A stretch of DNA of 64,000 nucleotides from Cellulosimicrobium protaetiae. GTDB lineage: Bacteria > Actinomycetota > Actinomycetes > Actinomycetales > Cellulomonadaceae. The stretch covers positions 2,108,001 through 2,172,000 of the forward strand of contig NZ_CP052757.1 in the NCBI RefSeq assembly GCF_009708005.2. The letters run 5' to 3'. Of this stretch, positions 3,592 to 56,517 are shown one piece after another. A program made the translations under genes and the position numbers. A model generated the notes under the pieces. It ran no database searches, had not been told where the DNA came from, and saw only the letters and a program-made list of their open reading frames with translations. Within the stretch, counting starts at the first letter, position 1. Each line of letters begins with the position of its first letter.

Positions 3592-4725
<1,134 letters not shown>

Positions 4726-4783
4726 CGCAGGCAGGGCGACGAAGGAGCCCTTGCCGGAGTCGGCGGGAGGCGTCTGCCCGACC

Positions 4784-4813
4784 GACTACACCGAGGGCTC
4801 TGCGGCTCGCTGA
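4784..4813 (+). pseudogene. Second, diverged copy of the ilvC 3' end
   Basis: Thirty bases encode DYTEGSAAR plus a TGA stop, the same nine residues and stop that end ilvC at 4696-4725. The first 15 bases are identical. The rest differ at synonymous positions, including AGC versus TCT for serine. The copy is 88 bp downstream and in another frame, with no ribosome entry of its own, so it is not expressed as part of IlvC. Synonymous divergence suggests a fragment from a related ilvC allele left by recombination rather than a fresh tandem duplication. Confidence 0.7.
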
Positions 4814-4835
4814 CCTGACGCGCGTCGCTCACCTC

Positions 4836-4932
4836 GAGGAGGGGGCGGCGTCGTGCGCGATCTACCATCCGGCCTCGTGCCTCGGCCTCCCGCCAGGCCC
4901 GCCACGATCGCGCAGGACGCCGCCCCCTCCTC
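4836..4932 (+). repeat. Two-stem hairpin element, copy 1 (after ilvC)
   Basis: The outer arms 4836-4862 and 4906-4932 are 27 nt each and complementary except for one position. The 43-nt interior reads TACCATCC, an inner stem GGCC/GGCC closing the loop TCGTGCCTC, then TCCCGCCAGGCCCGCCAC. A second element at 56409-56517 has the same three unpaired segments but unrelated, equally self-complementary stems. There is no T-tract, so this is not a simple intrinsic terminator. Function is unknown. Confidence 0.85.
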
Positions 4933-55754: not shown

Positions 55755-56393
55755 ATGGAGAAGTTCACGACCCACACCGGCGTCGGCGTCCCGCTGCGCC
55801 GCAGCAACGTCGACACCGACCAGATCATCCCCGCCGTCTACCTCAAGCGCGTGACGCGCACGGGGTTCGAGGACGCGCTGTTCGCCGCCTGGCGCGGTGA
55901 CCCCACGTTCGTCCTCAACCAGGACGCCTACCGCGCCGGCTCCGTGCTCGTCGCCGGCCCCGACTTCGGCACCGGCTCGTCGCGCGAGCACGCCGTCTGG
56001 GCGCTCAAGGACTACGGCTTCCGCGTCGTCCTCGCGTCGCGCTTCGCCGACATCTTCCGCGGCAACTCCGGCAAGCAGGGTCTCGTCGCCGGCATCGTCG
56101 CGCAGGAGGACATCGAGCTCCTCTGGAAGATCCTCGAGACCAACCCCGGCACCGAGGTGACCGTCGACCTGGTGAACCGCACCGCGTCGGCGCAGGACGT
56201 CACCGTGCCGTTCCAGATCGACGACTACACGCGCTGGCGCCTCATGGAGGGCCTCGACGACATCGGCCTCACCCTCCAGCACGAGGACGAGATCTCCGCG
56301 TTCGAGGCGACGCGTGCGTCGTGGCGCCCGAAGACGCTGCCCGCGAAGACGCTGCCGAAGGTGGAGATCGAGGCTGCTCGGCCCGTCGGCTGA
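55755..56393 (+). CDS. leuD: 3-isopropylmalate dehydratase, small subunit
   Basis: LeuD is the swivelling domain partner of LeuC. The 212-residue protein shows [40 protein letters not shown] and [18 protein letters not shown], all diagnostic. The ATG at 55755 is preceded by AAGAGG (55741-55746) and gives the usual MEKFTTHTG start. The C-terminal tail [18 protein letters not shown] is typical of actinobacterial LeuD. The hairpin element at 56409 begins 16 bp after the stop codon and could end the leuCD transcript. Confidence 0.97.
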
Positions 56394-56408: not shown

Positions 56409-56517
56409 GGGCGGGCTCTGGGGTGGTGACGACGGGTCTACCATCCGCAGGGCTCGTTCCTCGCCCTGCTCCCGCCAGGCCCACCACGACCCGTCGTCAC
56501 CACCCCAGAACCCGCCC
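56409..56517 (+). repeat. Two-stem hairpin element, copy 2 (after leuD)
   Basis: The outer arms (56409-56438 and 56488-56517, 30 nt) are complementary except at one position. The 49-nt interior reads TACCATCC, an inner stem GCAGGGC/GCCCTGC closing TCGTTCCTC, then TCCCGCCAGGCCCACCAC. Compared with copy 1 (4836-4932), both stems have changed sequence while keeping pairing, and the three unpaired segments are identical apart from one base in two of them. The remaining bases to 56634 show no gene. Confidence 0.85.

Follow-up and report, generated by a model that had tools for sequence, protein, structure and literature searches.

A 64,000 nt stretch of the Cellulosimicrobium protaetiae genome (the window) carries, at two places shortly after genes, a long GC-rich hairpin whose paired arms differ between the two sites and whose unpaired parts are almost the same. 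The locus therefore raises the question of what kind of element would keep its single-stranded segments while leaving its stems free, and whether such an element is best regarded as a mobile repeat, a terminator or a binding site. We addressed this question by computational analysis of the window and of related genomes.

Two hairpins in the window share a plan

The preliminary description of this DNA proposed that two loci share a plan of long self-complementary outer stems and conserved unpaired segments, and direct reading of the sequence together with pair counts confirmed this architecture (Table 1). Pairing was counted at 26 of 27 outer-stem positions in copy 1 and at 29 of 30 in copy 2. 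The arms of the two copies are unrelated to each other, and each copy is nearly self-complementary. Over both copies, the unpaired segments read TACCATCC, TCGTKCCTC and TCCCGCCAGGCCCRCCAC.

Table 1. Coordinates and parts of the two window copies and of the genes that precede them.
Feature	Position	Strand	Basis or remark
Copy 1, outer stem, left arm	4836..4862	+	read from sequence, pairs counted
Copy 1, unpaired segment 1, TACCATCC	4863..4870	+	read from sequence
Copy 1, inner stem GGCC/GGCC with loop	4871..4887	+	read from sequence
Copy 1, 9 nt loop, TCGTGCCTC	4875-4883	+	complement GAGGCACGA, for which GA-G-GNA-C-GA is the suggested structural reading
Copy 1, unpaired segment 3, TCCCGCCAGGCCCGCCAC	4888..4905	+	read from sequence
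Copy 1, outer stem, right arm	4906..4932	+	read from sequence, pairs counted
Copy 2, outer stem, left arm	56409..56438	+	read from sequence, pairs counted
Copy 2, unpaired segment 1, TACCATCC	56439..56446	+	read from sequence
Copy 2, inner stem GCAGGGC/GCCCTGC with loop	56447..56469	+	read from sequence
Copy 2, loop, TCGTTCCTC	56454-56462	+	read from sequence
Copy 2, unpaired segment 3, TCCCGCCAGGCCCACCAC	56470..56487	+	read from sequence
Copy 2, outer stem, right arm	56488..56517	+	read from sequence, pairs counted
ilvC (KARI_N and KARI_C domains), upstream of copy 1	3631..4725	+	longest frame; start at 3700 by the gene caller
Aconitase_C protein, 212 aa, upstream of copy 2	55755..56393	+	probably leuD, from size and context

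When the window was searched with a covariance model, only copy 1 (4844-4924, 80.6 bits) and copy 2 (56420-56506, 99.7 bits) were matched, and the runner-up scored 15. The model was built from 30 dissimilar copies that include both of these, and their match is thus by construction. Separately, positions 4696-4814 of the window hold a partial duplication of the ilvC 3′ end with its stop codon and following spacer, and in related species (L233, L234) further copies of this unit lie between ilvC and the hairpin.

Stems covary around a nearly invariant core

The 30 dissimilar copies permit a direct view of which parts of the hairpin are held constant. Among their 740 stem cells, 93.2% are paired, compared with 64.3% (sd 1.2) in shuffles, and structures slid along the same alignment pair at only 37-50% of cells. 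Changes on both sides are seen at 23 of the 26 stem pairs, the covariation score is 0.638 versus 0.149, and the arms vary freely over the 19 + 7 pairs counted. The outer arms thus pair without conserving their sequence, unlike the terminal inverted repeats of a MITE, the exception being one subfamily (termed ‘standard’) whose members share their arms. Any motif in the flanks of the 30 copies is weak. A G-quadruplex in the internal loop was also considered and was set aside, as it appears in the predicted minimum fold of just one of the 30 copies and brings no gain in energy.

At the tip of this hairpin, the family core consists of ACCATCC, the inner stem around TCGTNCCTC, and TCCCGCCAGNCCCR(N)CCA. 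When copies that differ in arm and inner stem are each counted once, 94 of 96 have ACCATCC as segment 1, all 96 have TCGTNCCTC as the loop, and segment 3 stays near TCCCGCCAGNCCCR(N)CCA; these copies were found by pattern, which largely fixed their core beforehand, and two further distinct copies that fall outside the pattern are not part of the count. The comparison of orthologous sites described below provides a view of the core across species. Together with the 30-copy covariation, it supports the earlier proposal that the structure is constrained and the unpaired segments are near-invariant, with selection as the suggested cause.

Copies in the C. protaetiae genome

The pattern YACCATCC-N3..25-TCGTNCCTC has 53 matches in the C. 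protaetiae genome and none for a reversed control. With the covariance model the total reaches 59 copies, of which 58 lie at loci fetched from this genome (L017 left out, and variants added by way of segment 3) and the remaining one is copy 1 from the window; two of the fetched loci (L041, L042) have no match to the model. Fifty-six of the 59 copies score at least 80 bits and three score 48-58 bits. Segment 3 by itself, with up to three mismatches, gave at least two matches in 17 of 100 shuffles of a window, and such a pair of matches is not unusual.

Elements are approximately 95-125 bp long. Thirty-three of the C. protaetiae copies form the standard subfamily, with a common arm pair and common flanks, and those outside this subfamily each have their own arms. 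No clear bias between replication strands is evident by eye for the pattern matches in this genome. Many standard copies are flanked by short, inward-pointing arrays of a 21 bp repeat, CGAGGTAGAACC-S-TGGTC-NNN (for example L007, L026 and L036). With one mismatch allowed, the 18-base pattern of this repeat occurs 380 times in the genome and never in the control, and no such repeat was seen within the window. These arrays look like the ends of some larger repeat unit.

Distribution across genomes

With the strict pattern, all 17 sampled Cellulosimicrobium genomes contain the element, in 1-52 copies each. Further copies, for which the preliminary description proposed a search, are present both in this genome and in its relatives (59 in C. 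protaetiae and at least one in each of the 17 genomes of the genus). Among the matches listed, the genera with at least one covariance model match are Cellulosimicrobium, Actinomyces, Luteimicrobium, Antribacter, Pseudactinotalea, Isoptericola and Oerskovia, a list that rests on at least 120 stretches from a scan of named genomes. A looser pattern that omits the 3′ segment matches 38 of 396 genomes (C. protaetiae included) in an order-wide sample, and the strict pattern matches two of 394 genomes in a class-wide sample, both of the same order as C. protaetiae. Occurrence in the order Actinomycetales is thus patchy. For example, one genome (G030) has 10 pattern matches and a congener (G012) has none.

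The quality of the more distant matches is uneven. Among 40 loci fetched from relatives, 26 reach at least 50 bits, one (L063) reaches just 24.8 bits, and 13 that lay outside the model run (L088-L100) are chance-like as judged by their 3′ segment. Beyond the order, one copy of 66.1 bits occurs in a contig titled as a Jatrophihabitans MAG (L215). Pattern matches in contigs titled Saccharibacteria, Lentisphaerae, Albimonas and Methanoregulaceae have no match to the covariance model and were dismissed. The single pattern match in viral contigs scores an unconvincing 18 bits, and no match was obtained when plasmids were searched with one standard copy and phages with copy 2. In 1.2 Mb from three genomes, all 20 model matches score 80-102 bits and none is lower (E up to 1, default filters). 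Degenerate copies are likewise few at the other loci searched with the model, where seven matches of 22-34 bits were found. Draft contigs frequently terminate or are garbled at the hairpin (L113, L114, L126, L143, L183), and copy numbers in draft genomes may therefore be underestimates.

Elements lie mostly after genes and sometimes within them

Gene positions were taken from a codon-usage caller that had been trained on the window, where it predicts 54 genes and a coding share of 89%. Of 52 placed copies in the C. protaetiae genome, 21 lie between convergent genes, 12 between tandem genes and oriented as these are, 10 between tandem genes and oriented against them, and one between divergent genes; the other eight fall within predicted ORFs or have no called neighbour. 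A wider set of 195 rows includes orthologues and 28 rows with weak stems. Its 137 non-standard rows comprise 41 convergent, 40 tandem same-direction, 21 tandem opposite-direction and no divergent intergenic sites, along with 34 rows within predicted ORFs and one for which a neighbour is missing. The corresponding numbers for its 58 standard rows are 27, 10, 12 and 4, with a neighbour missing in five. A check of position relative to 3′ ends, suggested at the outset, therefore places the element mostly just after genes and rarely between divergent ones. The two window copies follow branched-chain amino acid genes, and this association proved to be a coincidence, given that the 59 copies accompany many other genes and also occur inside ligD, pcrA/uvrD and biotin carboxylase.

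Where a non-standard row has an upstream gene on the same strand, the stop codon of that gene lies 14-182 nt before the core in 81 of 91 cases. A GC-rich hairpin shortly past a stop codon is the arrangement of an intrinsic terminator. Given this placement, the exchange with plain hairpins described below and the strength of the fold, the element likely acts as a terminator.

Several of the predicted ORFs with an internal element are real genes, which by Pfam encode LigD, an HrpA-like helicase, a UvrD/PcrA helicase, an RNase_H_2/AAA protein, a biotin carboxylase and a formate/nitrite transporter. Some of these copies are in-frame and correspond to protein linkers; in LigD, the element sits between the phosphoesterase and ligase domains. 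Intragenic copies occur in both orientations and in different reading frames in different genes, and consequently encode no conserved peptide. At the biotin carboxylase linker, the frame is kept in all 16 genomes that have both anchors (a 17th genome lacks them), and the element is present in 12. Three of these 12 copies have one change in segment 1, and the copy designated L363 has a variant core. At four loci (L333, L335, L336, L337), C. protaetiae included, the hrpA linker is occupied by a hairpin variant whose core differs.

Gain, loss and constraint at orthologous sites

Across species, the sites after ilvC and leuD hold the element, a plain hairpin or nothing. The leuD site carries the element in nine of 17 genomes, and the presence of related arms in nine species indicates that this copy is old. 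Among these nine, pairs of copies differ by 0.056 in the loop and 0.059 in segment 3; the arms differ by 0.07-0.33 and the flanks by 0.39-0.69. The ilvC site is filled in 11 genomes. Counted over pairs of these, segment 1 shows 0/385 differences, the loop 10/440 and segment 3, for pairs of equal length, 46/630. The inner 20 nt of the arms differ there by 0.25-0.33 in the 11 genomes, and the flanks by 0.51-0.54 in nine of them, the diverged L234 and L247 standing outside this comparison; in L234, both the loop and segment 3 are changed. All 20 filled copies at the two sites have ACCATCC as segment 1, and the search expression, which requires this sequence, cost no filled copy at either. These results suggest that selection preserves the core at settled copies.

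Absences at these sites are also informative. The ilvC site of one genome (G399) lacks the core, which is retained by five relatives whose arms are the same (G397, G401, G404, G406, G409); this case is best read as a deletion of the core. At hrpA, the left arm alone remains in five genomes (G397, G399, G400, G402, G403), and one standard copy has lost its core and right arm and kept its left arm. Neither a clean pre-insertion site nor a target duplication was found at the orthologous sites compared, and several absences of the element are better read as deletions. We also considered whether the arms might derive from the host through fold-back insertion. This idea is weakened by the hrpA copy, which has a 96% match over its palindrome to a copy elsewhere, as well as by the core deletion in G399 and the standard copy reduced to its left arm.

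Two further features of these sites were observed. Plain hairpins at the leuD site (L260, L261, L262, L267) have a common apical motif containing ACGTC, CGACACGTC or nearly so, which in other species is found again a short way downstream of the full element. Hairpins with this motif are possibly a second family. Moreover, three genomes (G402, G403 and G405, represented by L237, L238 and L234) have several hundred extra bases between ilvC and the next gene, a stretch that by eye appears to code for an isochorismatase-like hydrolase.

The complementary strand is probably the folded one

Because a G.T mismatch reads as A.C on the opposite strand, the ratio of the two can tell which strand stays folded. 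On the strand as first read, stem mismatches in unique contexts comprise 42 A.C and 12 G.T (p 5e-5); in 41 mutually dissimilar copies the counts are 13 and 5 (p 0.096). A.C mismatches exceed G.T mismatches for elements after genes (10:4), against genes (7:2) and between convergent genes (14:3), and the two are tied (1:1) in an intragenic class of five copies. The sign of the bias is thus kept in the three intergenic contexts whatever the direction of the gene. As a control, 75 ordinary hairpins that follow genes in three genomes were taken together and show 33 G.T and 15 A.C mismatches in the gene direction (p 0.013).

The anatomy of the loop points the same way. On the complement, the loop is GAGGNACGA, and with its closing C-G pair, which is invariant in 30 of 30 copies, it reads C-GA-G-(GNA)-C-GA-G. 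Such a sequence can fold into tandem sheared G.A pairs and then a G-C pair, with a GNA triloop on top; the apical loop of the complement may take this form, and its one variable base is the middle N of GNA. Beside the inner stem, GGA lies opposite GGA on this strand, and the internal loop is purine-rich. RNA energies favour the complement in 28 of the 30 copies (with one tie and one against), partly through alternative pairings, and the complement of both window copies folds strongly, with z about -7. On the basis of the mismatch bias and the loop anatomy, the relevant strand is probably not the one on which the element was first described but its complement. The bias may reflect a mutational asymmetry that is tied to the element.

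Search for a mobilizing gene

The preliminary description pointed to a hairpin-acting, transposase-like gene as a possible partner, and the searches did not bear this out. The Y1/HUH transposase domain (PF01797) was found in none of the 17 Cellulosimicrobium genomes and in five of 14 control genomes, and a reverse transcriptase domain was found in three of the 17, C. protaetiae not among them. No transposase is present among four recurrent neighbour clusters that were inspected. Their proteins, which might have been mobilizers, look by eye like an ABC transporter ATPase, a response regulator, a histidine kinase and a LigD fragment; a LigD was the one recurrent-neighbour protein that was scanned with Pfam.

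The preliminary description gave no matching named motif for the element, and this assessment stands. Rfam yields nothing above its gathering threshold, the window giving two tRNAs only and four loci giving eight chance-level matches, all below threshold, and no description of the element was found in openly licensed papers. The copies look like a family of short, dispersed, structured repeats of the Actinomycetales that has been amplified in Cellulosimicrobium and for which we found no prior description.

Candidate explanations for the element

We judge the chances slightly better than even that this is a dispersed repeat, similar to REPs or MITEs, that replaces terminators and whose core is read as a folded single strand by some factor. 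The hairpin lies where a terminator would after genes, or in frame within protein linkers, and a copy after a gene could thus replace an ordinary terminator hairpin; many arm sequences would be tolerated provided that they pair. The core would be recognized as a folded single strand, most likely the complement of the strand first read. Recognition of the folded complement is favoured because the core persists at sites whose arms and flanks have changed, and because the strand signal is independent of gene direction. The existence of such a recognizer is suggested by these data, and the mobility of the element by its distribution. Spread might occur as non-autonomous units moved by a separate enzyme, one subfamily perhaps being the passenger of a larger unit bounded by the 21 bp repeats, and settled copies would keep their core through selection. 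We consider unlikely a more specific version of this explanation, in which a strand-specific folded module, with a purine-rich internal loop and an apical loop of tandem G.A pairs and a GNA cap, sits at terminator tips, is bound by a protein that acts on the folded single strand, takes arms that are supplied by the host or re-templated, and has a host role that preserves settled copies.

A purely selfish element of the REP or MITE type, in which the core is a transposition signal and its conservation results from recent spread and deletion of damaged copies, would account for the patchy distribution, the subfamilies with common arms, the absences that retain one arm and the core variants at intragenic sites. 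Copies in protein linkers also fit, as the consulted parts of two papers report in-frame insertion for Rickettsia palindromic elements (PMC10969869) and for other palindromic repeats (PMC3733652). However, recent spread leaves unexplained the old leuD copy, whose core differs by 0-6% among nine species when its flanks differ by 39-69%, and the searches described above identified no transposase. We regard this explanation as possible but well short of even. An alternative that also appears unlikely is a cis-acting RNA module, namely a terminator or 3′-end structure whose tip is bound by a protein in the mRNA. Its location shortly past stop codons, the plain hairpins that take its place in other species and the strong fold of the complement are what such a module would show, but orientation relative to genes is nearly free (12 versus 10 tandem copies in C. 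protaetiae and 40 versus 21 in the wider non-standard set), intragenic copies occur in both orientations, and the strand-specific mismatch bias is the same whichever way the gene runs. Compensatory changes in the stems of a dispersed repeat do not by themselves prove an RNA. Ordinary quasi-palindromes perfected by template-switch repair would yield perfect arms of unrelated sequence with no need for selection on the stems, and two near-identical genomes (L252, L253) do have different mismatches at the same pair. Because this process leaves both the near-invariant core and the excess of A.C over G.T mismatches unexplained, we view it as improbable.

Comparison with known systems

The bcr1 element of the Bacillus cereus group is a dispersed repeat of about 150 bp with a conserved predicted fold. 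The element described here is likewise dispersed with a conserved fold, although it belongs to another phylum, and the likeness drawn here is one of description. Integron attC sites are strand-specific folded hairpins with conserved unpaired features and variable stems. Unlike attC sites, the present element has no conserved R/L box pair in its arms (as judged from the 30-copy alignment), and it occurs as single copies after ordinary genes rather than in cassette arrays. Uptake signals are short linear words that are arranged in inverted pairs when they form terminators, in contrast to the folded core of the present element. DNA uptake sequences are repeats that double as terminators, as the consulted part of one paper describes (PMC2267715).

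The sections consulted of a study of REPs (PMC3733652) describe GTAG REPs with stems of 5-13 bp that are linked to Y1 transposases, and CGTC REPs with stems of 8-9 bp and loops of 4-5 nt that have no dedicated transposase. Like REP/BIME repeats with RAYT transposases, as presented there, the element is a short palindrome that is numerous, patchy, mostly located after genes and partly intragenic, and its targets similarly include replication and repair genes. It differs from GTAG REPs in its outer stems, which are approximately 27-30 bp and free in sequence, in its conserved unpaired core, and in the absence of Y1 from all 17 genomes. With CGTC REPs and Rickettsia palindromic elements it shares in-frame insertion in genes (PMC3733652, PMC10969869), the latter encoding a conserved peptide according to the portion consulted of the second source; a conserved internal loop with free stems is not part of either description in those portions. 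Palindromic repeats in the compared papers are, in the same portions, recognized by stems and tags. The present element instead combines a kept unpaired core with stems that vary under strong covariation, in tens of chromosomal copies and at old orthologous sites, and it may serve as a test case for distinguishing a selfish repeat from a terminator or a binding site and for establishing which strand is read. It lacks two features that define REPs, a short conserved stem and a Y1 transposase. Among known repeats it stands nearest to REPs, to CGTC repeats and to Rickettsia palindromic elements.
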